From positions 1 through 24,120 of the IMG/VR virus record IMGVR_UViG_3300037010_001138: a stretch of DNA of 24,120 nt; one strand, given 5' to 3'. The notes below the pieces were generated by a model that was given only the letters and a program-made list of their open reading frames with translations, was not told the origin of the DNA and did no database searches. A program made the position numbers and the translations under genes. This DNA is from a virus. Shown in pieces: positions 6,026 to 24,120 of the stretch. Within the stretch, counting starts at the first letter, position 1, and each line of letters opens with the position of its first letter.

Positions 6026-6032
6026 GGTAACG

Positions 6033-7531: not shown

Positions 7532-7539
7532 GAGAAATC

Positions 7540-7992: not shown

Positions 7993-8217
7993 ATGCCAGA
8001 CATTAGCCACAAGCGCGGTACTCGTGCCGCGCTTATCGCCTTGGCTGGAGCTAACGGGCTCAAGCCGGGGCAGCTATACGTCTTGACGGACGAGAACCGC
8101 ATCGCAGTGGCAATGAGCGTGAGCACGTTCGAGACTTACGCCAAAGAGTCCGAGGCTGGCGGTGGCGGCGTATCTGCTTCAGATGCCGTTGCCAGCAACA
8201 ATCTTGGGGGGTTCTGA
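7993..8217 (+). CDS. Small KRG-type fibre-adaptor protein
   Basis: 74 aa. The ATG directly follows the TAA of the upstream gene, with only a weak GGGA (7980-7983) about 10 nt upstream, so re-initiation is likely. The N-terminus ISHKRGTRAALIALAGANG, then LKPGQLYVLTDENRIAVAMS, is a second, divergent version of the KRG attachment domain of the previous gene. The tail is Gly/Ser-rich with GGGGVSASDAVASNNLGGF. Such short proteins precede the large fibre in some phages and may form its base (inference). The last codons contain the G6 run that serves as ribosome-binding site for the next ORF. Confidence 0.75.
   Translation: MPDISHKRGTRAALIALAGANGLKPGQLYVLTDENRIAVAMSVSTFETYAKESEAGGGGVSASDAVASNNLGGF
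8206..8211 (+). promoter_or_regulatory. G-run ribosome-binding site inside the upstream coding sequence
   Basis: GGGGGG encodes part of the C-terminal LGGF of the 74-aa protein and sits five bases before the ATG at 8217, which itself overlaps the TGA (TGATG). It is the only Shine-Dalgarno-like signal for the 399-aa fibre gene. Confidence 0.5.
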
Positions 8218-9416
8218 TGCTCTACCTGAACAACGGCGACGCGCTCATTGTCTCGAACTCCAATGCGCTGGCATGTAAGACGCATGTATCGTACGCCGAC
8301 GCATCTGGTACGACGCTCATTGGTGGGCGCGCCAACGTCTCGTCTAGCGCTACGAGCTTCAACGCCGTCTCGTACAGCGGGGCAGCTACGCGCAACGTGC
8401 GTGCTGTGGCGATCACAAACGCCGACAGTTCAAACGCCGGGGTGTTTAGCCTCCTGCACAGTGACGGTACGACCCAGACCCCACTGTACACCGCCTCTCT
8501 GCAGCCGGGGCAGACGTTGAGCTATACCGAGGGCAAGGGCTTCGAACTTTCGACAGCCGCGACTTCGTCGCTCGCCACGCTGGTACTGCCAGACACGCAA
8601 AACCCGGCCGCCCCGGTGTCTAACTACGGCACCATCTTCATGAAGAAGATAGCGGGTCGGATGACGGCTTCTCAGATTGACCCCTCTGGCTTAGCTGCTA
8701 CCCTGCAGCCTAACTTGGGCGAGACCAAGGCGGCCATCTGGATGCCGCCCGGCGGCTCGGCGACGGTCCCCGGTGTTTTTGGGATGAACGCATTGTCAGC
8801 AACCGGGACTGCCACCGCCCGATCCGTCGCCACCACCAACGTGCAGACTCGGATGACACGACTTGGCTACGTCTCCGCCACCACCGCAGGATCGCTGGCC
8901 GGCGTTCGTGAAACAGTAACCAAGTACGCAACAGGTGCAGGAGCTGGGCTGGGGGGATTCTTTGCACGCTATCGATTCGGTGTCAGCGACCCTGCTTATG
9001 TCTCAGGAGCCCGGATGTTCGTTGGCCTCGACGCAGCCTCGGCCACCGCCCCTACAAACGTCGAGCCGTCCACCAAAGTCAACTGCGTGGGGGTTGGGCA
9101 GATTTCGACGTCTACCAACCTTCAACTCATCTACGGCAACGCAGCAGCAAAGACACCCATCGACCTTGGCGGCAACCTCTCCGCCACCAGCAACACCGAC
9201 GCGTATGAGCTCATCCTCTTCAGCCCTGCGTCCGGAGGTATTTTCTGGCAGGTTAACCGCCTCAACACTACGTACAATGCGTCCGGATTCATCGCAGCCA
9301 CCGACGCACCTGCTGCCACAACGTTCCTTGGGCACCAGCTGTGGCGCTGCAACAACGCCACGGCGCTGGCTGTCGCTCTCGATGTGGGCAGCATCTACAT
9401 CGAGACCGCCCTCTGA
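8217..9416 (+). CDS. Tail fibre / receptor-binding protein candidate
   Basis: 399 aa, starting in a TGATG overlap with the upstream stop. Residues 1-115 match a pattern frequent in phage fibre proteins: an initial LNNGDALIVSNSNALACKTH and a VSYADASG strand, then RNVRAVAITNADSSNAGVFSL, then SLQPGQTLSYTEGKGFEL. This is probably the particle-anchoring domain. After a linker, residues about 165-399 form a Ser/Thr/Ala-rich beta domain with GGFFARYRFGVSD, ARMFVGL and a C-terminal VALDVGSIYIETAL, resembling a C-terminal fibre tip module found in several phages. It is the largest fibre-like protein of the local cluster and the best candidate for contacting the host. No lyase or hydrolase motif is visible. 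Confidence 0.8.
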   Translation: MLYLNNGDALIVSNSNALACKTHVSYADASGTTLIGGRANVSSSATSFNAVSYSGAATRNVRAVAITNADSSNAGVFSLLHSDGTTQTPLYTASLQPGQTLSYTEGKGFELSTAATSSLATLVLPDTQNPAAPVSNYGTIFMKKIAGRMTASQIDPSGLAATLQPNLGETKAAIWMPPGGSATVPGVFGMNALSATGTATARSVATTNVQTRMTRLGYVSATTAGSLAGVRETVTKYATGAGAGLGGFFARYRFGVSDPAYVSGARMFVGLDAASATAPTNVEPSTKVNCVGVGQISTSTNLQLIYGNAAAKTPIDLGGNLSATSNTDAYELILFSPASGGIFWQVNRLNTTYNASGFIAATDAPAATTFLGHQLWRCNNATALAVALDVGSIYIETAL

Positions 9417-9444
9417 TCGGTGTATAACCCACCACCCCCCACTG

Positions 9445-9452
9445 AAAGGAAA
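9445..9452 (+). promoter_or_regulatory. Ribosome-binding site AAAGGAAA in the longest intergenic gap
   Basis: The 41-nt gap at 9417-9457 is the largest in the window. It contains a C-rich run and then AAAGGAAA five bases before the ATG at 9458. I see no promoter or hairpin in it. Confidence 0.6.
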
Positions 9453-9457
9453 TCATC

Positions 9458-10054
9458 ATGAACGACCTGCAGAAACACGCTGGCGAATTCGCTGCTGCGC
9501 TCGCCTCCCACAAGTACGAACGCACCGGCGACGAGCGCGGGCTGTATTTCCCGAAGGCCAAAGCCTTCATCTCGGGCATGTACGTCCACGACGTGAACGG
9601 TGAAGACGAGCGCGTTGACCCCAACCTGCTGCCCGACGAAGGCCTGATGTACCTGCTCACTGTGGGGTTGTACAACGGAACCAAGCTGCCGACGTGGAAC
9701 CTCGCGCTGTACGCTGCGAACTACACGCCGCTGGCCAATCTGACTGCTGCATCGTTCCCTGCAACCGCGAACGAGATCACCTCGAACACTGAGGGCTACA
9801 CCGAGTCGACCCGTCCCGTGTGGACCCCGTCGACCCCGAGCACCAACAGCATCGACAATTTGGCCAACAAGGCAGCGTTCACCATCGCCACGGCTTCTAG
9901 CCTGACGGTGCAAGGCGCCGCCCTGCTCAGCGAGGCGGCCAAAGGTGCAGTGACTGGCAAGCTGGTGTCAGCCACCAAGTTCAGTGCGGCTCGCACGCTG
10001 TACAACACCGACGTGTTCAACCTTGCGTACCGCGTGCAGCTGACTTCGAGCTGA
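9458..10054 (+). CDS. Phage structural protein, unknown (198 aa)
   Basis: 198 aa with a good Shine-Dalgarno. The N-terminal 50 residues are mixed helical and hydrophilic. Residues 63-85 contain DEGLMYLLTVGLYNGTKLPTWNLALY, a pattern I associate with a widespread small phage virion protein ('..eGl...ld..l.g......w.v.Ly'). It continues with AANYTPLANLTAASFPATANEI, then a Thr/Pro-rich segment (TESTRPVWTPSTPSTNSI) and a beta-rich Ala/Thr C-terminus. Its size, composition and location next to the fibre gene suggest a tail-associated or decoration protein. The biochemical role is not known to me. It ends 7 nt before the next gene. Confidence 0.8.
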   Translation: MNDLQKHAGEFAAALASHKYERTGDERGLYFPKAKAFISGMYVHDVNGEDERVDPNLLPDEGLMYLLTVGLYNGTKLPTWNLALYAANYTPLANLTAASFPATANEITSNTEGYTESTRPVWTPSTPSTNSIDNLANKAAFTIATASSLTVQGAALLSEAAKGAVTGKLVSATKFSAARTLYNTDVFNLAYRVQLTSS

Positions 10055-10061
10055 TCCGACG

Positions 10062-12422
10062 ATGGCCTCCTATGATGGGGCCCCGTCGATCCGTCTGGAG
10101 GGTGATGAGAAACGTGCGCTTGCCCTCATTTCCGAGGGCACGCTGCTGCTCAGCAAGGCACAGGCGTTCACGAAGCGGGCCGAAGTCCCCACGTACTCGA
10201 TGAGTCGTCGCGTCAGCGACGACGAGTACATCTACGTGCTTGTGGCGGGTGGCCAGAACATCATCCAGATCAGCGCGGGGGTGAAGTATCCCAGTCTGGT
10301 CCACAGAGAACCCGAAGAAGAAGAACCCGAAATCCTCGAGTCCTCTGCCTCCCCCAACTTCCTATCTGGTCTCGTGTTCAACGGTATACTGGACACGCGC
10401 GAAGAGACCATGCCCGACGGTTCCAAGATCTCGTATACGGTGATCCGCAGCTGGGCGCCCACGCCAAACTGCGCCGAGATTCAGGACATCAGTCTTGGCC
10501 GGCAGCCGTCTCGTCGCCTCGCTGTGCGCCCGCACAGCACGATGCCCGAGTGGAACAACAGCGACGACATGCTCGGTACAGCCGAGTACAGCCAAAACGT
10601 GGTTCCCCGCGCCTCCGACTGGTCGGGCACCATGAAGAAAGTCGTACAGATCGTGTTCGGCCTCGGGCGCATCAACAAGAACAAACTGCGAGACCCGAAC
10701 AAGCCCGGTCCTGCGACCCAGTACATGAACGACGTCGACCAGAATGGCGTTCAGGTTCAATACGACTACAAGTTCATGCGCACCCACGGCGTCTACAAGG
10801 GGGCGGACAACACGTTGTGGCTTGTAGAGATCAGCTCGACCAAGGGTGTGATCGCTATGCCCCTGCCGATCTTCCCCGGTTCAGACAAAACCGACTTCGC
10901 TCTGCGCGCGGAAGGACGTGGTGACACAGCCATGCAGAAAGCGCTCGATGAGCTGGGCTGCCTGCCCACCGGCGAGGGGTTCCCTACCGGCAAGACCTTC
11001 CAAGAGAAGCTGACCAAGGGCGACATCCTCCAGCTGCTGCCACCCGCAGACCTGCAGGAGTTCTATCGCCTGTCGGCGTACAGCTCTGCCTGTGGCTGGG
11101 CATTCAACGAGAAGGGCAACGAGGCTCACAACGTCGGGTACATGTGGCCGGAGGACGACGTCTTCCAGAAGGGCTACTGGTATCAGATCAACATCAACAT
11201 CGGTCCGGTGAACAAGAACCGGGAGCCGGGCCAGCCCATTGCGAGCGGCTCGGCCAGCCTGCGTAAGCAGCAGGAAGGATACCTGTACTCCCCGCCGGTG
11301 AAGAACAGCTTCATTCCCGTGAAGTACTACGAGCCGCTGTTGCCCGGCCTGTTGAGCCACAGCGCCAAGCCCACTGGACCGACCCCGTTCGTCGTGAACT
11401 GCGACACGGTTGTGTTCGTTGCCTTCATGAACGGCGACCTGAAGGCCGCGCGCTACTTCAAGCTTGGGCAGCCTGAGAGCCACGGGTCCGTTGAGGACGA
11501 GCGCTGGGGTGAGAAGTGCCTGCTAGAGGGGTCGTGGTCGTGGAAGACTGTCACAGGCTCGCGCTCGCTACCGGCGATGCCATACACAAATGACTTCGAC
11601 CCTCGTGCTGTGCTCGAAGAGCACGTGCTGGAGGGTACGTTGACGTCCAACACGCTCGGCTTCGACCCGCCCTCGTTCAGCGACTTTATAGATGCGCCCG
11701 AGGGCTGTGTGGTCTGGCGTCAAAAGGTATGGAAGCAAGTCACTGTGCAGGAAGAACGCGGCGGCGAGAGCCGCAGCGCTTGCCTCATGGTACCTGCGCA
11801 TTCGCGTGAGGCGTACTACTACTTCGAGGGGCACTCGTACAACGGCGGGAGGCACGGGTCGACGTCTGTGAACTACGTCTACGTGACGGACCCATACATC
11901 TACTATGGCTGGCGCAAGCTCGTGCGCATCGCCTCGCCACCGTACCCGGCAGGCTGCGATTGCCGCACGAGCAAGTGCGGTGGCAAGCACACGGAGCGGC
12001 GGATCATCTGCTGGGAGTACAGCGAGCACCAGTGCTACGACTACGCCGATAGCGGGCCGTGGGCGCAGGAGTGTCAGGACATTGTGTCTCTGTGCTCTGC
12101 CAATCCGCCGTCGCGCAGATCGACCTACGAGTCGTGGGACAAAGGGACTGACTTCAAGGGTACGTGGAACTTCGTTTCTGACGGCCTGAACGGCCCCGTG
12201 TCTGGCCCGACGACTGAGAACCAACACGCGTATGCGATGACACCAAGTCCTGATCCCGAGACTGGTCTGGTCCAGTTTATCTCTGCGGAGCACTCTGCAA
12301 TCGGCGAAGATTGCGTCATCTACACCAAGGGGTTTGGCGATCGCGTGGTGACCGGCTACACGCCTGTTCCGCTCACTCAGGATGACGGCATGCCCCTCTT
12401 CATTGGAGTGAATCAGCCATGA
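10062..12422 (+). CDS. Large phage protein of unknown function with C-terminal cysteine cluster
   Basis: 786 aa. The start at 10062 is 7 nt after the previous stop but has a poor Shine-Dalgarno, so coupling is likely. No family is recognised with confidence. Visible features are an acidic run EPEEEEPEILESS around residues 82-95, many Trp/Tyr/Gly residues of globular type, and a Cys cluster with Cys at 632, 634, 639, 650, 658, 671 and 678 (CDCRTSKC then C, C, C, C). That density is unusual for a phage structural protein and could be a metal-binding or disulfide knot. No signal peptide or transmembrane helix is seen. Position between fibre and coiled-coil genes suggests a virion component. The last 4 nt overlap the next gene (ATGA). 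Confidence 0.8.
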   Translation: MASYDGAPSIRLEGDEKRALALISEGTLLLSKAQAFTKRAEVPTYSMSRRVSDDEYIYVLVAGGQNIIQISAGVKYPSLVHREPEEEEPEILESSASPNFLSGLVFNGILDTREETMPDGSKISYTVIRSWAPTPNCAEIQDISLGRQPSRRLAVRPHSTMPEWNNSDDMLGTAEYSQNVVPRASDWSGTMKKVVQIVFGLGRINKNKLRDPNKPGPATQYMNDVDQNGVQVQYDYKFMRTHGVYKGADNTLWLVEISSTKGVIAMPLPIFPGSDKTDFALRAEGRGDTAMQKALDELGCLPTGEGFPTGKTFQEKLTKGDILQLLPPADLQEFYRLSAYSSACGWAFNEKGNEAHNVGYMWPEDDVFQKGYWYQININIGPVNKNREPGQPIASGSASLRKQQEGYLYSPPVKNSFIPVKYYEPLLPGLLSHSAKPTGPTPFVVNCDTVVFVAFMNGDLKAARYFKLGQPESHGSVEDERWGEKCLLEGSWSWKTVTGSRSLPAMPYTNDFDPRAVLEEHVLEGTLTSNTLGFDPPSFSDFIDAPEGCVVWRQKVWKQVTVQEERGGESRSACLMVPAHSREAYYYFEGHSYNGGRHGSTSVNYVYVTDPYIYYGWRKLVRIASPPYPAGCDCRTSKCGGKHTERRIICWEYSEHQCYDYADSGPWAQECQDIVSLCSANPPSRRSTYESWDKGTDFKGTWNFVSDGLNGPVSGPTTENQHAYAMTPSPDPETGLVQFISAEHSAIGEDCVIYTKGFGDRVVTGYTPVPLTQDDGMPLFIGVNQP

Positions 12423-13600
12423 GCGATTGTTGCGAAGTTTGCGAGGGCGTAGCCGGCGCCACGTCTTCCTGCCCGGCCACGGATGTGATCATGGTGCTCG
12501 TTGAGACGGCGGACACCACGTCGTCGATGGTAGCCGCGCCGCAGCCGCAAGGTGTTGTCATCAGCGCTGGCGATGGCACAAGCCCGATCACGATCGATGC
12601 GTACGCCGTGCTGGTGAACTCGGCCGACGCTGCATCGATTGCGGACACCACGACGGTTGTCGCCGACCTGCTGCTTGACAGCGCGAGCGGTGTGTCGTCC
12701 GCCGTGCAGGGCCTGAATCAGACGGCTGAGGCAGCCGCCTATGCCACGGACAAGATCCTCGTCGCCGACGCATTGCAGCTGCTGGTCTCGGCCGCACAGG
12801 CCATATCCGGCATCGCTGGTGCCGGTACGGCCGCTGGCGCGTTCGTTGAATCCAGCGGCAATGCCAAGTCATTTGCCTCCCTCGGTCTGCTGGAGGCCGT
12901 GACATCGTCGGCGAACGCCACGGGGCTCATCGCTGTACTGCAGCGTCGTGTCGACGTCGACGCGACTTCTACCGCTGCTGCCACGTCCTCTGCTGACCCA
13001 AACGGTGTGCCGGAGACCTACCTGCTGATCTCGACCGCCGATGGCACGTCGCTGATGCAGGTCCAGAACGACGCGGTTCTGTCTATCAGCTCTTCGGCCG
13101 AAGTGACTTCGGACGTCTGGTTCGAGGACCCGAGTTCCAAGGCGTGGGTGATGAACACCGAGACGACGGCGATGGGCTGGTACGACAATTTCAAATTCGA
13201 GTCGATCGTTTCGTGGAAGGGCCGCGAGTTGGCTGTGGGACCGGACGGCATCCACGAGTTGACTGGCGCCTCCGACAACGGCCGGAAAATCGACTCGCTC
13301 GTGGAATCCGGCTTCACCGACTTCGGTGCAGCTCAAACGAAGCGGCTAGATAGCATGTACTTCGGCTACACTAGCGACGGTCAAATTGCCGTGAAGACCG
13401 AGGTCTATGAGTCTGGGTCTCCCCCATACACCTACTCCCTTGAAAAGCGCAATGCGAATGCCCCTCGCAATAGCCGTGTGACCCCCGGCAAGGGCCTTTG
13501 GGGTCGGTACTGGCGTCTGACGATCACGAACGTGGACGGCGCCGATTTTGAAGTCCATGATGCGACTGTCGACATCGCCATGTCGACTCGGAGGATCTGA
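12419..13600 (+). CDS. Virion protein with repetitive Ala/Ser N-half and beta-rich C-domain
   Basis: 393 aa, overlapping the upstream stop as ATGA, with GGAG at 12405-12408. Residues 1-20 carry Cys at 4, 5, 8 and 18 (MSDCCEVCEG). Residues about 25-230 are Ala/Ser/Val/Asp-rich and loosely periodic (about 25-35 residues per unit, with recurring 'V.SA.A.S' and 'VADALQL'), as in elongated phage structural proteins. Residues about 241-393 form a domain recurrent in phage virion proteins: AWVMNTETTAMGWYDNFKFE, ELAVGPDGIHELTG, SGFTDFGAAQTKRLDSMYFG, GKGLWGRYWRLTITN and DFEVHDATVDIAMSTRRI. The domain looks beta-rich and may cap a tail or propeller assembly (inference). No catalytic motif seen. Confidence 0.8.
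   Translation: MSDCCEVCEGVAGATSSCPATDVIMVLVETADTTSSMVAAPQPQGVVISAGDGTSPITIDAYAVLVNSADAASIADTTTVVADLLLDSASGVSSAVQGLNQTAEAAAYATDKILVADALQLLVSAAQAISGIAGAGTAAGAFVESSGNAKSFASLGLLEAVTSSANATGLIAVLQRRVDVDATSTAAATSSADPNGVPETYLLISTADGTSLMQVQNDAVLSISSSAEVTSDVWFEDPSSKAWVMNTETTAMGWYDNFKFESIVSWKGRELAVGPDGIHELTGASDNGRKIDSLVESGFTDFGAAQTKRLDSMYFGYTSDGQIAVKTEVYESGSPPYTYSLEKRNANAPRNSRVTPGKGLWGRYWRLTITNVDGADFEVHDATVDIAMSTRRI
13590..13595 (+). promoter_or_regulatory. Ribosome-binding site GGAGGA
   Basis: GGAGGA lies within the last codons of the upstream gene, seven bases before the ATG at 13603, and fixes that start. Confidence 0.7.
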
Positions 13601-13602
13601 AT

Positions 13603-15558
13603 ATGGCTGCGAGTGGTGCTTTTGCTGAGGCATACAGCACGGTCGAGAACGTAGAGAGGCTGGTTGAGGATCGCGTCAAGGCGTCGACAGATGTCGCCAA
13701 AGACCTCCAGTCCTCGGCCATGCAGACTGTATTTGCCCTTGGCCACACCGACCTCAACTTCAACGCCGGCAGCCCGCCAGCGTTGCCGAAAATTGACCCG
13801 TCGATCAAAGTCGACCTAAACCTGCCCCACATCTCGCCGACATCGTTCGGGACAATCACGTCGATCGTCCCGGACGTGCCTACGCTCGATCCGGTGCCGG
13901 CCATTCCCGACCTGACGATCCCCGACTTCGTGTCGTCGATTGGTTCGCTGAATATCCCGAATGCCCCTGCGTGGTCAGCCACCCCTCAGCTGCCTACTGA
14001 GCCTACGATCGAAGACGTTGTCGTGCCAGACATGCCGGCGATAACGATACCTGCTCCACCCACACTGGCAGAGATCACCGTACCCGACTTCTCCGGGATA
14101 ACTCTCCCTACGTTCAACGCAACGGCGCCCGAATTCGAAGGCACTGCGCTGCCCGGCATCCTGCAATGGGGCGAGCCGACCTACCGCCCAGAGATCCTCG
14201 AAGACGTAATGGCGCAGCTGCGCAGGCTATGGGACGGCGGCTCTGGCATCCCCCCTGCTGTGGAGCAGGCCATGTGGGCGCGCGCGGCTGACCGCGAAGA
14301 CCTGACTGCCAAGCGTGAACTGGACTCTGTGTCTGAGGAGTTTTCAATGCGCGGCTTCACCATGCCTCCGGGCATGCAGGCCGCGCGTATCGACCAGCTG
14401 CGCCAAGACCTCGCTGTCAAGAAGCTTGGTCTGAACCGCGAGCTGACGATCCAGATCGCCCAGTGGCAGGTCGAGAACGTGCGCTTCGCCTGCACGCAGG
14501 CCATCGCCGCCGAGAACGTCTATGTCAACCTGTTCATGAATCAGGCCCAGCGCCTATTCGAGGCCGCCCGGTTCCAAGTTGAGTCGCAGATCAGCATCTA
14601 CAACGCGCAGGTCGCGCTGTTTAACGCACGCATGAACGGCTATGAGATCAGTGCCCGGGTGTTCAACACGCTGATCCAAGCCGAGCTGTCCAAGATCGAA
14701 GTGTTCAAGGCCGAGGTCGAAGCCGAGGTGGCGCGCGGCCAGCTGAACACACAGAAAGTGCAAGCGTACGCAGCAATGATCGACGCGCTGAAGGCGCAGA
14801 CCGAGGCATACCGTACTCAGATGCAGGGCGCGGAGATCAAGTCCAGCGTGCTGCGCGACAGGATCGAGGTGTTCAAGGCCAAGATCCAAGCCTACGCGGA
14901 GCAGATCAATGCGCAGAAGATCGTGTTCGATGCCTATGAGTCGCAGGTGAAGGGTGAGGCGGCCAAAGCCGGCATCATCGACGCCGAGGCCCGTGCATAC
15001 GCTGCCTTGATTCAGGGCAAGACGTCCGTTGCTGACATCGACATGAAGAAGGCCGACGTGACCATCCAGAAGAACAAGGTGCTGATCGAGGGCTATCAAG
15101 CGGCGTTGGAGGCCGAGAAGGCTCGCATTCAGTCCCAGCTGTCGATCATTCAGTCAGGTGCGCAGGCGTATATCGCCGACACCCAGCGCTACACCGCAGT
15201 GGCTCAGGCCGAAGGCACGAAAGCCCAAGTGCAGGTGACTGCCAAAGAAGCGGAGCTGCGCACCAACGTGGCGTTCTACCAAGCTCAGGTGCAAGCGTAC
15301 ATCGGCAACATGGAGCAGTTGATTCGCAAAGCCGCGCTGGCCGTCGACGCTCTGAAAGCGGCTGGCAGCATCTCGTCCACCCTTGCTGCAGGCGCCATGG
15401 CCGGTGTCCACGTGGGTGCGACGCTCTCTGGTTCCGGTGGTGTCGCTGCTACGGGTGCTGAGCAATACACCCAGTCGTTCGCGAAGAACGAGGCAACCTC
15501 GAAGATTGAGGCGAACTACGTTAACCAGACCTACACCCACGAAGGGGGTAAACCATGA
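13603..15558 (+). CDS. Elongated virion protein: proline-rich shaft plus long helical rod
   Basis: 651 aa. Residues 10-50 are helical. Residues about 56-190 are an unusual Pro-rich beta-like stretch with regularly spaced Pro and Ile/Val (IPDLTIPDF, VVPDMPAITIPAPPTLAEI, VPDFSGITLPTF). A conserved-looking hinge follows with WGEPTYRPEILEDV and EFSMRGFTMPPGMQAARI. Residues about 265-585 are almost continuous helix with repeated aromatic-x-A-x-V/I-x-A units (IYNAQVALFNARM, VFKAEVEAEV, VFKAKIQAYAEQI, FYQAQVQAYI), suggesting a long coiled coil. The C-terminus is Gly/Ala-rich (STLAAGAMAGVHVGA, then GSGGVAATG). This fits a long virion rod, such as a tape-measure-like or DNA-ejection component. The exact role is inferred. 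Its 3' end overlaps the next gene by 4 nt. Confidence 0.85.
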   Translation: MAASGAFAEAYSTVENVERLVEDRVKASTDVAKDLQSSAMQTVFALGHTDLNFNAGSPPALPKIDPSIKVDLNLPHISPTSFGTITSIVPDVPTLDPVPAIPDLTIPDFVSSIGSLNIPNAPAWSATPQLPTEPTIEDVVVPDMPAITIPAPPTLAEITVPDFSGITLPTFNATAPEFEGTALPGILQWGEPTYRPEILEDVMAQLRRLWDGGSGIPPAVEQAMWARAADREDLTAKRELDSVSEEFSMRGFTMPPGMQAARIDQLRQDLAVKKLGLNRELTIQIAQWQVENVRFACTQAIAAENVYVNLFMNQAQRLFEAARFQVESQISIYNAQVALFNARMNGYEISARVFNTLIQAELSKIEVFKAEVEAEVARGQLNTQKVQAYAAMIDALKAQTEAYRTQMQGAEIKSSVLRDRIEVFKAKIQAYAEQINAQKIVFDAYESQVKGEAAKAGIIDAEARAYAALIQGKTSVADIDMKKADVTIQKNKVLIEGYQAALEAEKARIQSQLSIIQSGAQAYIADTQRYTAVAQAEGTKAQVQVTAKEAELRTNVAFYQAQVQAYIGNMEQLIRKAALAVDALKAAGSISSTLAAGAMAGVHVGATLSGSGGVAATGAEQYTQSFAKNEATSKIEANYVNQTYTHEGGKP

Positions 15559-17834
15559 CCAGCCAAATAACGAAGGATTTCAAAATGAAGTCTCGCTTGC
15601 GCGCCCTAGCTGACGGTGGTTCCGTCGACCCTAACATGCTCGGCACCGGTGCCGCTGCACGCGCGGGCAACCTTCTAGTTGGACGCGGTCGCCAGATCGA
15701 CGATGCCGTGGACGCCGCCACTGGCACGGCGGCCCCTGCCCCAGCGCAGCAGCAACAACAGGTTGTTCAACCTACGAAGAAATCCGGCCTCCGTGGTCTG
15801 CTGGGTTTGGCCGATGGTGGCTCGTATAACGCTCAACTGCGTGACGGCGGTCGCGTGAAGGGTCCCGGCGGCCCGACGGGCGACAAAGTCGGCCCCGTGA
15901 TGCTGAGCAACAAGGAGTATGTGCTCCCCGGTGACACGGCTGATGCCATTGGCCGCGACAAGCTGGACGCAATCCGTCTCGCCACTCACGATTTCAAGAG
16001 TGATCGCAAGGAATCCGCCCTGCGCAAGCGCGTTGGCAGCGACGGTGATAGCGACAGCGACGGTCGGCACGATGGCGATGGCGATGGCGATGGTCGACGC
16101 GGCAGTGCGATGCCGGCGCCCCATCTGGCCGATGGTGGTAGCCCGAAGGCTGTAGACCCAAATGACGATGTGTACCTCCCGAACGCATTAGGGGATGTCG
16201 CCGCCGGCCCTAGCTATCAGCAACCCGGCGCGGTAGCGCAGGCGAGTTCGGCTGGCAATCCTCCGCCTCCCGCTCAGGTCGCGAATAAAGCCACCGACTC
16301 GACCCCCAACACCCCTCTGGCCCATATCTTTGACCCGGGCAGCAGCAGCAGCGCGCTGCGACTCATCGCGCCGTTTGCCAATGTCGCCGGCAACATCTCG
16401 TCGGATCTTGGTGGCCGTATCGGTCACGGCATGACTAGCGCCTTTAGCGGCGGCAAGTTCATGGACGGGTTCACGAGCCCGCCCGACAGTGGTCAGCGCC
16501 CAGCGCAGCAGCAACCGAGCACCAATGCGCCCTCAGCTCCTGCAGCTCCTGCGGCGGCCGCCCCACCAGTCCCGGTCTCGGATCAAGGGCCCGCGCAGCC
16601 GGTAGCCCCGAGCTCGTATCAGTCGCGGCGTCTCTCTGAGATGGGTGTGCCGATGGAAGTACAGAACAGCAATCCTGTGGTGGACTCCGTCACTGACAAT
16701 ACCCGCAATTTCCTGCGTACTGGCGGTACCAAACAGTACCAAAACCTCGGGACCTACGGCGGCGACGGCAACATCTATGGCAAAGCCGATGACCCATCGC
16801 GTCCCAGCCGCATCAACAACTTCGTTGGCGTAGGTGCTACTGCATCCCCGTCCAGCGGGGAGCAGAACCCGTTAATGGAAGCCATCACCTCTGCCCTGCG
16901 CAGCCCCGGTGGCGGTTCGTCTGCCTCTGGCGCTCAATCGCCCAACGTAGACCCCGAAGCCGCTATTAACGCTCGCTACGACAAGATAGCCGAAGAGATT
17001 CGCAAATCATATGGCCCTGAAGATAAGGGCCTCTACGCCAGAAGGCTAGCTGAGATACAGCAGGCGCGTGCCGGCGAGCTGAACAGCCTCCGCTCGACTA
17101 GGACCATGCACGATGATGCGCAGCTCAACGCCGATACGCTGCGACATACCAATGCAGTCACTGCCTTGGCCGGCATGCAAAACGCAAGCATGGCGCGGGA
17201 AAAGGAGTATGCGGTAGCGCGGATGAGGGCCTTGCAGCAGGCCCAGCAGTTCCAACGAGAGGTCGAAAAAGATGGAGCCGCACACCTAAAACAAAGCCTC
17301 GAGCAGATGTACGTCACCACCGACAAGAACGGTAATCAGGTCACGAACAAGGAAGCGGCGGCAGACCTCTTCTCGTACATCATGGGTAGCAACCCCATGG
17401 CAGACAAGGAATTCGCCTCCATGAAACCGCAGGAGCAGGACGCTTGGCTGCAGAGATTCAAGGTCTTGCATGATATTGGTACGACCGCTGACGATGTTGC
17501 GAGGAGAGGCCATCTGTTCTCCGCCAACGGCGGGACGACGCATTACGCAGATCTGCCGACCAGTTTGCGTGGGCTGGAGTGGAACGATGTCGTGAACAAC
17601 GGCGTACCGACATGGGACTATCTTCTGGGGAAGGCTACCGGAAATAACAAGGCAATGGTGATGGAGTCTGGGCGCGTGGTGCCACTCTTTAGGGCCACCA
17701 ATGAAAACGGGTCGCCGTTTAGTGTGCGTAATCTGGACGTTGAGAACGTCATCAACCAGTCTGTAGAAGCCGCACAGAAAGCGCAGAGCGCGCAAAACGT
17801 AAAGGCTAAGCAGTCAGCACTACGGAACAACTGA
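15555..17834 (+). CDS. Low-complexity phage protein with LADGG repeats and GPGG/LSNKEYVLP motif
   Basis: 759 aa from the ATG at 15555 (ATGA overlap, AAGGGGG seven bases upstream). A second start at 15585 (residue 11) has its own AAGGA and is equally plausible. LADGG occurs at residues 18-22, 85-89 and 191-195, with RDGG at 96-99. Right after the latter comes a conserved phage motif GPGGPTGDK..P.MLSNKEYVLPGDT and LDAIR (103-140), seen in many phage virion proteins ('GPG...D.i.a.LS.GEyVi.a'). Residues 163-180 are an Asp/Gly repeat. Residues about 210-430 are Pro/Ala/Ser-rich and disordered. Residues about 455-600 are helical with ARRLAEIQQARAGEL and EYAVARMRALQQAQQFQREV. The rest is globular and unrecognised. 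Its location between the rod protein and the giant protein suggests an internal or ejected virion protein (inference). Confidence 0.82.
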   Translation: MTSQITKDFKMKSRLRALADGGSVDPNMLGTGAAARAGNLLVGRGRQIDDAVDAATGTAAPAPAQQQQQVVQPTKKSGLRGLLGLADGGSYNAQLRDGGRVKGPGGPTGDKVGPVMLSNKEYVLPGDTADAIGRDKLDAIRLATHDFKSDRKESALRKRVGSDGDSDSDGRHDGDGDGDGRRGSAMPAPHLADGGSPKAVDPNDDVYLPNALGDVAAGPSYQQPGAVAQASSAGNPPPPAQVANKATDSTPNTPLAHIFDPGSSSSALRLIAPFANVAGNISSDLGGRIGHGMTSAFSGGKFMDGFTSPPDSGQRPAQQQPSTNAPSAPAAPAAAAPPVPVSDQGPAQPVAPSSYQSRRLSEMGVPMEVQNSNPVVDSVTDNTRNFLRTGGTKQYQNLGTYGGDGNIYGKADDPSRPSRINNFVGVGATASPSSGEQNPLMEAITSALRSPGGGSSASGAQSPNVDPEAAINARYDKIAEEIRKSYGPEDKGLYARRLAEIQQARAGELNSLRSTRTMHDDAQLNADTLRHTNAVTALAGMQNASMAREKEYAVARMRALQQAQQFQREVEKDGAAHLKQSLEQMYVTTDKNGNQVTNKEAAADLFSYIMGSNPMADKEFASMKPQEQDAWLQRFKVLHDIGTTADDVARRGHLFSANGGTTHYADLPTSLRGLEWNDVVNNGVPTWDYLLGKATGNNKAMVMESGRVVPLFRATNENGSPFSVRNLDVENVINQSVEAAQKAQSAQNVKAKQSALRNN
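15573..15577 (+). promoter_or_regulatory. Alternative ribosome-binding site for an internal start at 15585
   Basis: AAGGA lies seven bases upstream of the in-frame ATG at 15585. It would remove only the first 10 residues (MTSQITKDFK) and give a protein starting MKSRLRALADGG. I cannot tell which start is used; the ATGA overlap favours 15555. Confidence 0.4.
16071..16093 (+). repeat. GATGGC hexamer tandem repeat
   Basis: Three complete GATGGC units followed by GATGG, encoding part of the Asp/Gly tract (DGDGDGDG) in the 759-aa protein. It lies within a longer Asp-rich segment starting at 16041 (residues 163-180). It is a likely site of slipped-strand length variation. Confidence 0.85.
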
Positions 17835-17835
17835 C

Positions 17836-20800
17836 ATGGCAACTTCAATCTCATCCCTGCGCACCAATCGCGACGAGCCAAACCCATTCACTCGGCTCAC
17901 CACGGATGGTCAGATCTCTCCGGCTGCCCAGTACGCCTTACTCCCGGAGGAGAGCCAGTTCACCAAGGGCCTGCGTACTACCGCTGCGGCCCTTACCGCC
18001 GGTTCGTACACCGACGAGGCGCTGAGCAAAGAAGCAGCCGGTGATCCCGCATACACCGACGCACTCAACCGCGCTACGCAGGTCCTACAAGACACGCGTA
18101 TGTACGCACCGCGTGTGTCGTCACTGCGCGACGTCCATTCGCTCGGTGATGCCGGTGACTACGCCGCTAGCGCCCTTGGCCAGGGTGCCATGAGCATGGT
18201 TCCGATGATCCCAACGCTCGCAGCGGCCGCGCTGACTCGTAATCTCGGACTGGTCGGCAAGGCCATTGGGCACGGCGTTGCAGCGGTGCCGATGTACGAC
18301 ATGGGGCGCGGCGCAGCTGCATTGGAACAGTATCAAGATCCGGAGCAGATGAAGGCCCCGGTTCAGGACCGCGAGACGGCTGCTCGGGCCAGAGGAGTTA
18401 TTGACACTGCTTTTGCATCCGCTGTTCCTATCGGCATCGGTAAAACGCTTCTCCAAAAACCAGCTGGGTCGCTTTTGGGCCATATCGGTCGAGAAGCCGC
18501 CATCATGGGCGCCACAGGAGGAGCACAGCGGGTCGCAGACTACGGCACTGAGAAATACATCGATCCGAACAAGCAGCTCGATCCATGGGACGTTGCCGAT
18601 GCCGTAGCGGGCGGTGCTCTCACGGGCGGTGCCATGTCCGGTGTGTTTCGCGGCCCGGCCCACGCTGCAGCGGCCTTGTTGGGGCGCGGCAAGGACGCGA
18701 TGCCAGACATGTCCGGGATCAAGAACCCGTTCCAGCGTGGTGACGACACTGGTGATGGTGCTGGTGCTGGCGGCGTCGCGGATATGCCTAACGAGGGCGG
18801 GGGTGGCGGCGCTGCCGCTGGCCCTGCTCCTGCTGACACGGTACTGGATAAGATGGCTGGCTTCGGCCAAGCAGTGAAGGAGCGCTTCGGTGATGACTTC
18901 GCGGCTGCCGGCGACAAGGCCAAGGACGTGACCGGCAAGGCCAAGGATATCGTCTCTGACACCCTTGACCGCATGACCGAGGCTGTGCGCACTGCTGAAA
19001 ATCCGGGCGATTTTCTGAGTAAGGTTTTCGGTACCAGCCTCGAAGACGAAGCTTCGGCCGATGCGTTCGGGCAACCCAAACCTACGCTCAAGGGGGGTAC
19101 GATTGAAGAGACCGAAGCCAACGTCAGGCACGATGACGAGCAGCGTGCTACGCGCGCCTCGCGTTATGCCGACGAGCTGCTGAATGACCCGGTCACTCCG
19201 GACGAGGTCAAACAGCGTGTGGTCGACATGGGCGGTGACTTCACCGACCCGGACAACCAATCCTTCCTAGCCCGCACCCTCGTTACCCAGCGTGGTGGCG
19301 AGAAGGCCGGGAGTGCTGTGAAGGATCTGATCGACCTCGACAAGAGCGTATCCGCCAAGGGCTCGGAGATTGCGGGCGACGCCACTGACGGTGCACAAGA
19401 CCGTGTCGTCAAGAAGAACCTGCAGAGCGCTACGCCAGCCGAGGAGGCTGCGTTCAGCAAGGTGGTGTTCGACGGCTTGACCGACGAGGCCAAGGCCAGC
19501 CCTGACGTGCGCCGCCATCTTTCGGACGTAACCAACGCCATGATGGCCTTCGCTGCCAAGACCGGTGACGTGACGGCCAAGGACCTACCGACGCTGACCA
19601 AGCTGTCGAACGCCATGTCCCTGTTCAAGGACCCGGACGCCATGGCCAAGACGCTGGTGGAGTACGCTAACCTGCCGCGTCCCGAGGATAGCTTCTTGTC
19701 GCGTATCAAGAGCATCACGAACGCCCAGCAGGACATGAAGCAGCCAAACAGCTTCCTCGTGTCCAGCCTGACGCCCGAGGCGCGCCGCCAGCTCACTGCT
19801 CCGCAGCTCCAACGCATCGCCCAGCTGGTAGACCAGTTCACCCTCATTGACTCGGCCGACTCGAAAAAGGGCACGGCGCTGGTGAACGGGCTGGCTAGCG
19901 CCTTCGGCTCGCCTGAGAGCGCCAAGGCCGTTCTGGATTACTACGCCAAGCAGAACAAGGCTGATCTGCGCTTCGACCCGAACGAAACCCTGCAGGAGGA
20001 CGGCAGCAACCCGATCAACGTGCATGAGGCACCTGAGGCGTCATACCAGTTCAAGGACGCGAAGTCCATGCGTCCGTTCAGCGTGCTGCGCGGCACGCAG
20101 CGCGGCGCCAAGGAGTCGTCGCGCGCAGCCGTCGATATGATGGGCAGTGGCTCTGTTGGCCCTGACGCCCGGGCCCACCCGGTACCGTACAGCGAGTACG
20201 TGGCCCGCACCGGGCGCGACCCCGGGGCTGAGGTCAGGCGTATTGCTAACGACATCAAGGAGCGTATCGCCGGGCACGAGAGCCGTACCGGCGAAGACCG
20301 CTCGCAGCAGATCAACGAGTTGAAGGGTGAACTGAGCGCCATGCGCGAGGCGTACAAGAAGGGTGGCGCTAAGGCGGCTCTCGACCTGTACGAGGTGCTG
20401 AAGGTCTCAGACGCCAAGGCATACGACGGCACGATCGCGTCGGATGAAGACGTCGCTGCCTACGGCAAGCTTACCAAGGACCCGTCGGCCTCGAAGACTC
20501 GTGTGACGTTCGAGCGCACTGATGGCTCCAAGCTCACCCTATCCGCCGAGTCCATGTGGAAGTCGCAGGGCGATAAGGAGGGTTCAGGCCGTGGTGAGGG
20601 CGCCAGCAGGCGTATGCGCCGTCTGTTCTCCGACGCCGTGGCCTCCGTGCTGGCGCGCGATGATGTTAAGGGATTGTCGACCAATCTCGACGACGTGGTG
20701 CTAGACCGCAAAACAGGGGCGAGGCTCAAGCCTGAGCGTGACGACGAGTACTACGACATGGTGAAATCCGCTCTGAAAGGGGCTGAGGGTTCCCTGAAAG

Positions 20801-23800
20801 AACTGGAAGGGAAACTGTCCGAAGTTGCCGACGAGTTCACCGAGCTGCTGGACGACGACAGTGGGGTGGCTGAGTCACGCCGCGCGGAGATCAAACTTGC
20901 ACTGCAACGAAACGTAGACCGCTTGCAGGAGCGTCTCAACGAACTCAAGAAGAACAGAGGCGGTGTGCCGGCGGAAACTGTTGTGAAGAAGAGGCTGCGC
21001 ATGTACACCGAAGCAGCTGCGAACATCAGCGCTCTGGAGTTCGAGCACGAAGTAGAGCAGTCTGACATGAACCGCAAGGGAGTGACCGGAGAGGACGACG
21101 GCAAATCAATCGGCTCAAACGGCCTGCCGCGCACGCGTTCTAACGAGGAGCTAAACAACACTAGCCCTCGTCGCTACGAAGAAGACACCGGTGCTGCCTT
21201 GGGGTCCACGCGTGCGCCGATGACAGGCGCTGGGGGTGGTAGTAAGAATGGCGACGCGCGACCGCTTTCACCCAAAGAGCTCACCACTCTGCACGACGTG
21301 GCGGTGAAGGGGAACTGGGATCGCATAGACACGCCCGAGAAGATGCAGAGTTACAAGGAACTGGCCAGCAGAGCGATAGAGGAGCTTGGACAGATTCCGG
21401 AGGACAGACTGACCCGTATGCAGAGAGGGCTGCTGGACAAGCTGCGCTGGGGTGCTTCGCCGCCCTCGGAGCCGCCCTCGGAGTCACCGAAGAAGGACGT
21501 GGCGTACAAAAACAAAGTCGAGCTCACTGGGGACAGTCCGTATCTTGGCAAGGATCAAGAGAAATCCGATCGTGCCGACAAGTTCATCGGGCGCGGTAGC
21601 GAGAAGTCCAGCACCAACCAGTACATGAAGGACTGGGGGGAGTTAGCCAACACCGGCAAGTACACGAAAGACGACACCGTATTCATAAGCGCTGAGGGTA
21701 ACCGCAAAGGACGAATCGAGCCAGACTGGAATGAGATAAAGAAGGCCGTCGACGCTGGGGCTACGCTGATCACAGACGCGAAAGCAGATCGGGGGCGTCA
21801 GTACAACGTCGGTGAACGTGAAGTGGCTAAGTTCTTGTCCGACAACGGTTATGCTGAGTCGTCACCCGGTACTTGGGCGCCTGTGCAGCGCGAGGGGCGC
21901 GCCGAAACGCCAAAGACCGAACCGAACCCGGCCGCCTCGTCACGTGAGACCGCCAAGAAGATCGACGACACACGGGCGCTGAGCCCAGATGCGCTCACCG
22001 ACCTGTACGACGTGGCAGTGAAGGACAACTGGGGCCGCCTCGACACTCCGGGTAAGGTGCTGCGCTTCACTGATATGGCTGTCAAGGCCTTTGAGCAGCT
22101 CAAGAAGATCCCAGCGCTGGATCTCACTGACACGCAAAGCCAACTGCGCTTCAGGCTGGAAGAACTGCTTGACCCGAAAGGCTCCTTCGACTGGGGTAGC
22201 ATGTGGGACGGGCTCGAACCGACGGATGCACAGCGTGCGCGGCTGGAGGAGCTGATCCGCCCAAAAGCTGAGCCGGGCAGCGCCCGGCAATCCGCGATGA
22301 ACCCCAATAGCGGGGAACCGGGGAAGATTGACAAACAAGCGATCATCGATGAGATCGCCCGCATTCGCGGCAAGGACGTTAAGGTAGCGTTTGCCAAGTT
22401 CGCTGATATCGGTGCGTCTGGCGAATTCTCCATGAGTCCCGACAAGACGAAGCGGCTGATCAAGATCGCGGTCGATTCGTTGAACCCGATGTCCGTGGCG
22501 TGGCACGAGTCGCTACACGACTTCATGGCCGTGCTGGGTGGCTCTAAGGCCGAACGCAAGCTGAAGGCCGACCTGCTTGCCGCTTCCGAGGCACCGCAAG
22601 TCATGTCCAAGATGCGGGAGCTGCTGAAAGACCATCCCGAAGCGCTCATGCAGATCGAGAAAGACCGCGAGGAGCGGCTGGCCTACATGTACCAGTTCTG
22701 GGCCGAAGGTGCGCTGAAACTGGGCCCGACCGGGACGAACATCTTCTCGCGCATAGTGACGTTCTTCCGCGAGATGTTGGGAGTGCTGAGCCAAGACCAG
22801 AAGATCGATCGGCTGCTCACGGCGCTGCACGGTGGCAAGTTTTCGGAGCCCAGCCTCGTTGGAGCTGTGCTCGAAGACCTGAAGGCCGAGACGTTGCCCG
22901 ACCGTATACGCAGGGTGTCAGGTCCGCTTGGCGATACCGCCGAGGCCCTGTTCACAGCCACTACGGACCGTTTGCGCAACACCAACGTCGAGGCGCTGAC
23001 CGAGCTGGCTGACATGTTCCATCGCGAACCGGGCCGTGAAGCCCCGGGCAAGCTGCCATTCATGCAGCGCCGCGCACAGCAGACCGGTAAACGCCTGAAC
23101 CAGCTGCAGGATATCTTGGGTGATACGTCGGCTGAGGACCGCCGCCGCGCGCTGGAGAATATGCAGGCTATGAAACCGCCCTCCAGCCCGCTGGAGATGA
23201 GGCTGGCTGCATATCTCAAGGACATACACGACTATATGGTCGAGAACGGCGTAAAGCGCTTCGACCACAGTACCAAAAAGTGGGAAGATCTGGGCTACGT
23301 CAAGAACTACTTCCCGCGTGTCTGGGACAAGGGGACCATCCGCAACAATGAGGCGGAGTTCGTCAAGCTGCTGGAGCAGTACGTCGGTAAGGAACAGGCA
23401 CGGGAAACGTTCAACGCGCTGGTGAACGGTGACGGTTCGATCGAGCTGGCCGAAAACGAACACTCGCTGGGCTTCACCCCTTGGAACCCATCGGTGCTGG
23501 ACCGCCGGTTTACCTTCATCGACCCCAGCAACGCGGGCGATTTCGCCAAATACCAGTCCAAGGACTTGGTAGACGTCATGACCACATACGCCCAGCGCGC
23601 GGTGCATCGTGCTGAGTACGCCAACGACTTCGGCAACGACGGAGAAGTGATCACCTCGAAGCTCCTCAAAGCCCAGAAGCAAGGCGCGACGCAGGACGAA
23701 CTCGACATGGCGCGCAAGGCGACCATGGCTATGGAGGGTACGCTGGGCTACAACTTCAACCCGCACCTCAAGGAGGTTATGAGCGGTCTCATGGCGTACG

Positions 23801-24120
23801 AGAACATCGTGCTGCTTCCGCTTAGCCTGTTCTCGAACCTGATCGACCCGCTAGGCATAGCCCTACGCTCGAACGACATGAAAGAGGCGTGGACCGCGTT
23901 CAAGTACGGCATAAAGGGCCTCGTCGATCAGGTACGTGGTGCGGGCCCTGACGCCCAGACTGAGATGGCCAGAACGCTGGGGCTCATCGGCGACCAGCTC
24001 GTACTAGATTCCATGGGGCAGATGTACAACTCGATGTACATGAGCAAATTCCTGAAGAACCTCAACACGAAGTTCTTCCGCTACAACGGCATGGAGAGGT
24101 GGAATCAGAACATGCGGGTG
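17836..24120 (+). CDS. Giant polyvalent-type phage protein with zincin metallopeptidase domain (3' end outside window)
   Basis: The frame is open from the ATG at 17836 (1 nt after the previous stop; weak GGA at 17824-17826) to the right edge: 2095 codons, no stop. Read codon by codon, it shows the following. Residues 90-290 are a Gly/Ala-rich hydrophobic region (RVSSLRDVHSLGDAGDYAAS, MSMVPMIPTLAAAAL, AVAGGALTGGAMSG), typical of phage ejection proteins that touch membrane. A Gly/Ala linker follows at about 302-335. Long helical regions come next, including RVTFERTDGSKLTLSAESMW (about 889-908) and a coiled coil (986-1041). Two copies of a module (1142-1208, 1380-1454) bracket a conserved domain (1249-1347). 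A zincin-like domain has HESLH at 1557-1561 and Glu1612/1613. The end is a helical region with GYVKNYFPR (1820) and a hydrophobic stretch (1991-2009). Probably packaged and injected, perhaps acting on host or phage proteins (inference). Confidence 0.9.
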   Translation, partial: MATSISSLRTNRDEPNPFTRLTTDGQISPAAQYALLPEESQFTKGLRTTAAALTAGSYTDEALSKEAAGDPAYTDALNRATQVLQDTRMYAPRVSSLRDVHSLGDAGDYAASALGQGAMSMVPMIPTLAAAALTRNLGLVGKAIGHGVAAVPMYDMGRGAAALEQYQDPEQMKAPVQDRETAARARGVIDTAFASAVPIGIGKTLLQKPAGSLLGHIGREAAIMGATGGAQRVADYGTEKYIDPNKQLDPWDVADAVAGGALTGGAMSGVFRGPAHAAAALLGRGKDAMPDMSGIKNPFQRGDDTGDGAGAGGVADMPNEGGGGGAAAGPAPADTVLDKMAGFGQAVKERFGDDFAAAGDKAKDVTGKAKDIVSDTLDRMTEAVRTAENPGDFLSKVFGTSLEDEASADAFGQPKPTLKGGTIEETEANVRHDDEQRATRASRYADELLNDPVTPDEVKQRVVDMGGDFTDPDNQSFLARTLVTQRGGEKAGSAVKDLIDLDKSVSAKGSEIAGDATDGAQDRVVKKNLQSATPAEEAAFSKVVFDGLTDEAKASPDVRRHLSDVTNAMMAFAAKTGDVTAKDLPTLTKLSNAMSLFKDPDAMAKTLVEYANLPRPEDSFLSRIKSITNAQQDMKQPNSFLVSSLTPEARRQLTAPQLQRIAQLVDQFTLIDSADSKKGTALVNGLASAFGSPESAKAVLDYYAKQNKADLRFDPNETLQEDGSNPINVHEAPEASYQFKDAKSMRPFSVLRGTQRGAKESSRAAVDMMGSGSVGPDARAHPVPYSEYVARTGRDPGAEVRRIANDIKERIAGHESRTGEDRSQQINELKGELSAMREAYKKGGAKAALDLYEVLKVSDAKAYDGTIASDEDVAAYGKLTKDPSASKTRVTFERTDGSKLTLSAESMWKSQGDKEGSGRGEGASRRMRRLFSDAVASVLARDDVKGLSTNLDDVVLDRKTGARLKPERDDEYYDMVKSALKGAEGSLKELEGKLSEVADEFTELLDDDSGVAESRRAEIKLALQRNVDRLQERLNELKKNRGGVPAETVVKKRLRMYTEAAANISALEFEHEVEQSDMNRKGVTGEDDGKSIGSNGLPRTRSNEELNNTSPRRYEEDTGAALGSTRAPMTGAGGGSKNGDARPLSPKELTTLHDVAVKGNWDRIDTPEKMQSYKELASRAIEELGQIPEDRLTRMQRGLLDKLRWGASPPSEPPSESPKKDVAYKNKVELTGDSPYLGKDQEKSDRADKFIGRGSEKSSTNQYMKDWGELANTGKYTKDDTVFISAEGNRKGRIEPDWNEIKKAVDAGATLITDAKADRGRQYNVGEREVAKFLSDNGYAESSPGTWAPVQREGRAETPKTEPNPAASSRETAKKIDDTRALSPDALTDLYDVAVKDNWGRLDTPGKVLRFTDMAVKAFEQLKKIPALDLTDTQSQLRFRLEELLDPKGSFDWGSMWDGLEPTDAQRARLEELIRPKAEPGSARQSAMNPNSGEPGKIDKQAIIDEIARIRGKDVKVAFAKFADIGASGEFSMSPDKTKRLIKIAVDSLNPMSVAWHESLHDFMAVLGGSKAERKLKADLLAASEAPQVMSKMRELLKDHPEALMQIEKDREERLAYMYQFWAEGALKLGPTGTNIFSRIVTFFREMLGVLSQDQKIDRLLTALHGGKFSEPSLVGAVLEDLKAETLPDRIRRVSGPLGDTAEALFTATTDRLRNTNVEALTELADMFHREPGREAPGKLPFMQRRAQQTGKRLNQLQDILGDTSAEDRRRALENMQAMKPPSSPLEMRLAAYLKDIHDYMVENGVKRFDHSTKKWEDLGYVKNYFPRVWDKGTIRNNEAEFVKLLEQYVGKEQARETFNALVNGDGSIELAENEHSLGFTPWNPSVLDRRFTFIDPSNAGDFAKYQSKDLVDVMTTYAQRAVHRAEYANDFGNDGEVITSKLLKAQKQGATQDELDMARKATMAMEGTLGYNFNPHLKEVMSGLMAYENIVLLPLSLFSNLIDPLGIALRSNDMKEAWTAFKYGIKGLVDQVRGAGPDAQTEMARTLGLIGDQLVLDSMGQMYNSMYMSKFLKNLNTKFFRYNGMERWNQNMRV
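18100..18660 (+). other. Predicted membrane-active region of the giant protein
   Basis: Residues about 90-275 are enriched in Gly, Ala, Met and Val in amphipathic or hydrophobic blocks (MSMVPMIPTLAAAAL; GLVGKAIGHGVAAVPM; GVIDTAFASAVPIGIGK; AVAGGALTGGAMSG). Similar segments start large internal proteins of other podo- and siphophages and are thought to help form a channel in the host envelope. Here this is inference from composition. Confidence 0.45.
21259..21459 (+). repeat. Internal duplicated module, copy A (giant protein residues 1142-1208)
   Basis: Starts R-P-L-S-P-K-E-L-T-T-L and contains HDVAVKGNWDRIDTPEKM, then a helical Ala/Glu region and LTRMQRGLLDKLRWG. It matches copy B (21973-22197) across its whole length at protein level; DNA similarity is low. 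Confidence 0.8.
21580..21876 (+). other. Conserved globular domain between the duplicated modules
   Basis: Residues 1249-1347 of the giant protein: KFIGRGSEKSSTNQY, an aromatic-rich turn, DTVFISAEGNRKGRIEP, DAGATLITD, RQYNVGEREVAKFL and a final GTWAP. The same pattern (KFIGRGS..SST, VF(V/I)SAEG.R.GR, AGAT(F/L)ITD, YNVGEREVA..L) recurs, as I recall, in other giant phage proteins. Alternating strands and helices suggest a Rossmann-like, possibly nucleotide- or ligand-binding fold; this is inference and the molecular function is unknown. Confidence 0.6.
21973..22197 (+). repeat. Internal duplicated module, copy B (giant protein residues 1380-1454)
   Basis: Starts R-A-L-S-P-D-A-L-T-D-L and contains YDVAVKDNWGRLDTPGKV, then an Ala/Phe helix, LTDTQSQLRFRLEELL and FDWG. 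It shares the D-V-A-V-K-x-N-W-x-R-x-D-T-P core with copy A. Confidence 0.8.
22330..22860 (+). other. Zincin-like metallopeptidase domain of the giant protein
   Basis: Residues about 1499-1675. HESLH (His1557, Glu1558, His1561) is the HExxH zinc-binding/catalytic signature, preceded by a strand RLIKIAVDSLNPMSVAW and followed by helices. A second Glu in EERLAYMYQFWAEGAL (Glu1612 or 1613) is well placed as the third zinc ligand of a gluzincin. The layout fits the metallopeptidase-like domain described in polyvalent phage proteins. Catalytic residues look intact; the substrate is unknown. Confidence 0.7.

Follow-up and report, generated by a model that had tools for sequence, protein, structure and literature searches.

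A giant gene of an IMG/VR virus and its product, a probable polyvalent ejection protein whose cargo is swappable

The giant gene and its virion-protein relatives

The IMG/VR virus record IMGVR_UViG_3300037010_001138 is a contig of 24,120 bases, the whole of which was analysed here and is called the window. It ends in a giant gene on the + strand (17836..24120), which starts with ATG and is still open at the window end. As the window is the entire record, the contig end truncates the gene after 2095 of its 2321 codons. Its product, called the giant below, is probably a large polyvalent ejection protein of a podophage-like virus, serving as a carrier whose cargo bay takes exchangeable domains. 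The start of the gene lies two bases past the stop of a 759-amino-acid (aa) gene (15555-17834). A second IMG/VR contig, IMGVR_UViG_3300035661_000275 (L002 in the numbering of loci used here), contains all 6285 bases of the window's giant gene in identical form, and 11,633 of 11,663 bases are equal over the whole overlap. The full gene of 2321 codons (L002:5379-12344) is thus available, with 226 codons and a stop past the window edge (3' remainder, L002:11664-12344). A preliminary description made from the letters of the window had claimed a frame of at least 2095 codons running off the end and had proposed its 3' remainder as a check; the second contig bears out the claim and supplies the remainder. 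When the bases of the gene were shuffled 100 times, the longest open run to arise by chance had 285 codons. Moreover, comparison with the near relative L043 over 1410 codons gives a ratio of nonsynonymous to synonymous substitution rates (dN/dS) of 0.26, and therefore the gene is under purifying selection; by part, the ratio is 0.13 for the predicted zincin, 0.18 for the helical carrier, and 0.24 for the central domain.

The closest described relatives of the giant are virion proteins. Residues 1538-2094 match phrog_30152, 'virion structural protein' (E=3e-84; PHROG category head and packaging), and tblastn in phage records aligns residues 1482-2094 with the giant structural proteins of KPP25, R18, and CRPAP1904 at 32% identity (E=1e-78). 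Judged by its sequence, the giant is related, with much divergence, to the giant virion structural proteins encoded by the KPP25 group of short-tailed Pseudomonas phages. CRPAP1904 is short-tailed by electron microscopy (PMC13340246), and the KPP25 publication, as cited in the same paper, places KPP25 in Podoviridae. A profile search of IMG/VR with the C-terminal region gave 18 loci, and the alignment of this region comprises 13 distinct homologues. Additionally, the 927-aa 'particle protein' gp14 of Vibrio phage VPp1 keeps the helical C-terminal carrier (E=2.9e-21) and has a weak profile match to the N-terminal module (E=5.7e-4), while it has neither HExxH nor cargo. From these matches, VPp1 gp14 can be read as the core of an ejection protein, to which zincin and cargo would be additions. 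The N-terminal module gave nothing at E<=0.01 in tblastn against named phages. In one relative (L035:7293-10493), carrier and zincin are encoded on their own by a gene of 1066 aa that lacks the long N-terminal part, possibly a natural split of the giant.

The neighbourhood of the gene is likewise of virion type. The giant gene is the last of a same-strand series of virion genes, and the operon upstream of it (6033..17834, +) includes head-closure-like and virion structural genes as well as families shared with KPP25. Several of these upstream genes belong to families common to the CRPAP1904/KPP25-type operon, with their order kept, and the KPP25-type giants are also encoded directly downstream of those shared genes. 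That the gene closes an operon of tail or connector-like genes, and that relatives are annotated merely as 'structural protein', would also suit a tail-side or baseplate structural protein which never enters the cell. This explanation is highly improbable, as the giant matches an internal ejectosome protein, its PHROG category is head and packaging, and its central domain is common to the virion RNA polymerase family, which is ejected into the cell (PMC12633501). The next gene downstream of the giant in L002 and two relatives encodes a ribonucleotide reductase (L002:12684-14597, L039:10470-12377, and L043:4974-6887, the first two assigned to phrog_367). At the other end of the window, the adjacent proteins at 3-428 and 316-1638 are related in sequence and share a near-identical C-terminus (...DITGDSNGKWS); they are likely paralogous tail or fibre proteins.

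Predicted zincin, helical carrier, and N-terminal modules

Over the C-terminal ~840 residues, 13 distinct giants can be aligned. The first part of this region is a predicted zincin metallopeptidase domain (residues ~1496-1625; 22321..22710, +), comprising a helix, three strands, a helix with HExxH, and a later helix with EE. The metallopeptidase motif named in the preliminary description is present and conserved: it reads HESLH (residues 1557-1561; 22504..22518, +), and its H, E, and H are invariant in the 13 homologues, as is EER (residues 1612-1614; 22669..22677, +), a candidate for the third zinc ligand. In alignment numbering, the invariant residues are H76, E77, and H80, followed by E131, E132, and R133 within EERxAYM. 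The helical C-terminal carrier extends from residue ~1700 (22933..24120, +) and runs on to residue 2321 in L002. An AlphaFold2 model of the carrier region has a helix, three strands, the HExxH-bearing helix, and then the EER-bearing helix, which is the topology given by Iyer et al. for the zincins of polyvalent proteins (PMC5512222). Furthermore, a Foldseek search of this model against the whole PDB returned a sole significant match, the pre-infection ejectosome of phage PhiM1 (8vb2_A, E=1.4e-4, probability 1.00); the same search also lists MMP-11, with a probability of 0.90 and E=2.1.

Upstream of the variable zone, two modules are shared with other giants. The N-terminal module (residues 1-300; 17836..18735, +) is common by BLAST to L025, L028, L039, L040, and L037, and weakly to VPp1 gp14. 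A Gly/Ala-rich low-complexity linker evident in the sequence (residues ~305-335; 18748..18840, +) is followed by the middle module (residues ~371-1000; 18946..20835, +), common to L025, L039, L028, and in part L026. The sole segment of the giant above 1.5 on the Kyte-Doolittle scale is a hydrophobic helix in the carrier (residues 1990-2011; 23803..23868, +).

The variable zone and its central domain

Between the middle module and the zincin lies a variable zone in which the giants differ. In the window it consists of repeat copy A (residues 1139-1206; 21250..21453, +), a central domain (residues ~1227-1350; 21514..21885, +), and repeat copy B (residues 1378-1437; 21967..22146, +). The copies are ~60 aa each, 50% identical, and stand one on either side of the central domain, which bears out the duplicated module and enclosed globular domain described beforehand. 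The repeat occurs as a single copy in L025, L028, L039, and L037. The zone of L025, the closest full-length giant, contains the central domain, one repeat, LPD23 (27.7 bits against a cut-off of 27), and a second HExxH; that of L028 contains one repeat, an LPD23-like segment, and a second HExxH. ART-PolyVal (E=1.4e-16) is found in L033, the central domain adjoining the zincin in L041, and one repeat in L039. Across the giants, most of the zone is without a recognised domain. The zincin of the near sibling L043 is 88% identical to that of the window, its helical carrier 79%, and its neighbouring ribonucleotide reductase 93%. However, neither repeat is recognisable in it, and in the place of copy A the central domain is preceded by an unrelated segment of ~180 aa with HERSH (HExxH), which separates it from the upstream module. 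This is a natural swap with a defined junction between close relatives.

The central domain of ~125 residues has a confident alpha/beta AlphaFold2 model (mean predicted local distance difference test score, pLDDT, 91). Its invariant polar residues are K27, D28, K31, S46, S47, Y51, N60, R109, N112, E115, and R116. It is covered by no family model, as searches of Pfam, NCBIfam, PHROGs, and PADLOC gave no significant match. A fold search of the PDB and of viral models gave nothing below E=0.001; the viral model of highest probability (0.82, template modelling (TM) score 0.38) was a giant protein of Microbacterium phage Burro. The domain recurs in phages. It is present at 55-61% identity in the giants L015, L017, and L020 and in an N4-type virion RNA polymerase (vRNAP), L019, which carries three N4 vRNAP models and LPD3; nothing else is detectably common to these proteins and the window giant. 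In the Vibrio phages SUMAE and Kuja, stand-alone copies immediately precede ribonucleotide reductase genes. Large proteins of cyanobacterial conjugative plasmids also hold relatives of the domain (hhalign probability 99, E=3.7e-20), and one such relative is found in a ~1,987-aa protein annotated 'ribonuclease H' on a conjugative plasmid of Gloeothece (L048, 1-3972).

Few copies of the domain are cellular. None other was found in 369 sampled genomes from the class of one domain-bearing betaproteobacterial metagenome-assembled genome (MAG), and therefore the domain is rare in cellular genomes of that class. Some single occurrences were recorded. In Novosphingobium, a stand-alone gene for the domain follows a YAcAr (SLOG) gene by ~140 bases (L044:4813-5808 and 5950-6360). 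In an Akkermansiaceae MAG (L045:5275-8925), a stand-alone gene has neighbours which resemble, by eye, a helix-turn-helix regulator, a phosphoribosyltransferase, and a RadC-like protein (HNHPSGDP). In a Coriobacteriales MAG (L046:5941-7002), the domain forms one protein with a C-terminal segment which looks by eye like a RelA/SpoT synthetase (YRGVNTLF...ELQFHT); Pfam gave no match there. Finally, the domain is fused to DUF4326 (PF14216, E=2.4e-13) in L010:5992-6690. DUF4326 has been proposed by others to act on ADP-ribose derivatives.

The most likely role of the central domain, weakly suggested by context, would be the handling of a nucleotide or a nucleotide-derived signal early in infection. 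This suggestion is drawn loosely from its neighbours, namely ribonucleotide reductase, DUF4326, and the YAcAr SLOG gene, to which little weight is given. A more specific assignment, that the domain is itself a SLOG-family nucleotide-signal domain countering NAD/ADP-ribose-based defence, concerns the cargo only and would be compatible with the carrier model. The cyanobacterial plasmid relatives do carry SLOG-like VSGSG...GNAxGTDxL motifs, and the Novosphingobium copy does stand beside a YAcAr SLOG gene. Yet in hhalign neither alignment matched one made from PF10686 (YAcAr) loci, no SLOG structure did better than E=3.9 when the PDB was searched by fold, and Pfam gave no SLOG match. These results make the assignment rather unlikely. 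The identity, first considered from the motifs and the DUF4326 fusion, was thus left without support by profile and fold tests. A broader proposal, tentative and on balance somewhat doubtful, is that the domain is a new mobile effector, placed by phages in five or more ejected giants that have no other relationship to one another and by conjugative plasmids in large proteins. The giants would be the window's carrier family, the N4-type vRNAP, and three unclassified giants. The domain would then disarm a host response, probably one based on a nucleotide- or NAD-derived signal, in the first minutes of infection.

The make-up of the zone also bears on whether the giant has effector cargo at all. 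It could be structural only, a large ejection protein which forms a channel or clamps DNA as a core protein of the T7 gp16/PhiM1 type; its variable middle would then be tolerated decoration, and its zincin a structural domain or one for assembly maturation. The ejectosome match, the VPp1 core form devoid of cargo and HExxH, and the scarcity of recognised domains in most of the zone are in keeping with such a protein. We hold it unlikely all the same, because the zone repeatedly has conserved domains (ART-PolyVal, LPD23, second zincin-like motifs, and a central domain shared with vRNAP and plasmid proteins), HExxH and EER are invariant wherever the zincin is present, and the central domain has a dN/dS of 0.24, as given above.

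Proposed role and comparison with known systems

As a polyvalent ejection protein, the giant would work as follows. The N-terminal and middle modules and the helical carrier would serve its packaging into the head, where it would sit, and its exit through the tail along with the DNA, in the manner of the core proteins of PhiM1 and T7 (PMC11440229, PMC8954989). In this way it would bring its cargo into the bacterial cell. The zincin, at the N-terminal edge of the carrier, is placed such that it might cut the chain and free the cargo just upstream, either in the head or in the new host. The content of the cargo slot is exchanged between phages; in the window it is filled by a duplicated helical element around the alpha/beta domain of ~125 residues. 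The preliminary description had likewise taken the giant for an injected polyvalent protein with a membrane-active N-terminus. The polyvalent and injected part gains from the virion homology, the ejectosome match, the zincin topology, the LPD23 and ART-PolyVal of relatives, and the occurrence of the central domain in an N4-type vRNAP, while presence in virions, injection, and anti-defence activity stay at the level of probability. The membrane-active N-terminus did not find support.

Several results weigh against the proposal. Pfam, NCBIfam, and PADLOC gave no meaningful match to the whole window protein, and no Pfam family, those of polyvalent-associated domains included, came near its cut-off in it. 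The N-terminus of the giant has no 21-residue window above 1.5 on the Kyte-Doolittle scale; this measure is weak evidence, as it also misses the N4 vRNAP segment 224-278, which is predicted to span the membrane and lies within a domain shown to insert into nanodiscs (PMC12633501). The carrier model is of moderate confidence (mean pLDDT 72). HExxH and EER together are not proof of peptidase activity, and the carrier role does not require the zincin, since the VPp1 core form does without HExxH. The PhiM1 match has a whole-chain TM-score of only 0.22, and for this reason it is taken as a lead on fold and role, not as proof of homology. The sequence profile of the carrier gave no PhiM1 similarity among solved structures, but chance coiled-coil-like matches alone; ejection proteins diverge fast, so that sequence similarity to a solved one is a weak criterion. 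The unsupported SLOG identity and the dependence of the cargo's suggested function on context add to these points. What the analysis shows is the gene, its homologies, the borders of the modules, the swaps, the invariance of HExxH and EER, and the predicted folds; packaging, injection, proteolysis, and cargo activity are what we infer for the giant of a virus known here from its genes.

If the carrier does transport different domains, it would be a natural chassis for protein delivery by phages. Given a conserved carrier whose cargo slot is defined, one can predict for each phage which segment of its giant would act in the host, and the natural swaps supply a list of test cases. As for the central domain, it has no annotation and offers a concrete candidate for a function early in infection, common to phages and conjugative plasmids.

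Among known systems, the Kochitakasuvirus giants (KPP25, R18, and CRPAP1904; phrog_30152) are nearest in sequence. They share the C-terminal ~615-840 aa with the HExxH zincin and are of similar size (2107 aa in CRPAP1904), whereas they are ~32% identical to the window giant and have a different middle, the central domain not being seen in the CRPAP1904 protein. Compared with the polyvalent proteins of Iyer et al. 2017 (PMC5512222), the giant is likewise large and multidomain, with an HExxH zincin and exchangeable domains, and its relatives possess LPD23 and ART-PolyVal. However, the giant itself has no recognised effector domain above cut-off, and its central domain matches no Pfam LPD model; the enzymatic content of the window chain is one predicted zincin and a domain of unassigned activity. 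The N4 vRNAP (Schitoviridae gp50), whose ejection into the cell is experimentally known, has the same order of N-terminal domain, cargo (the polymerase), HExxH domain, and large helical C-terminus (PMC12633501), and the central domain of the window sits inside the vRNAP homologue L019, but the giant has no polymerase domain (no vRNAP model matches). Homology of the carrier to the vRNAP C-terminal domain, which this common layout suggests, was considered and set aside: the local matches found by hhalign were few and weak, though collinear in the two chains, and as the top score of 30.1 was barely above the maximum of 29.6 in 30 block shuffles, the likeness is kept as an analogy only. The large ejection proteins of podophages (T7 gp16 and the tetrameric ejection protein of PhiM1) are mostly helical and encoded at the end of the virion operon, and the carrier model fits the PhiM1 ejectosome; the giant differs from them in being about twice the size, with no detectable sequence similarity and no peptidoglycan-hydrolase domain found. 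Polyvalent ejection proteins are a class already known. New are the module map, the swaps, the connection between the carrier and the fold of an ejectosome, and a hitherto undescribed domain that recurs in unrelated giants; together they join two mostly separate literatures, the structural biology of podophage ejection proteins and the comparative genomics of polyvalent effectors.
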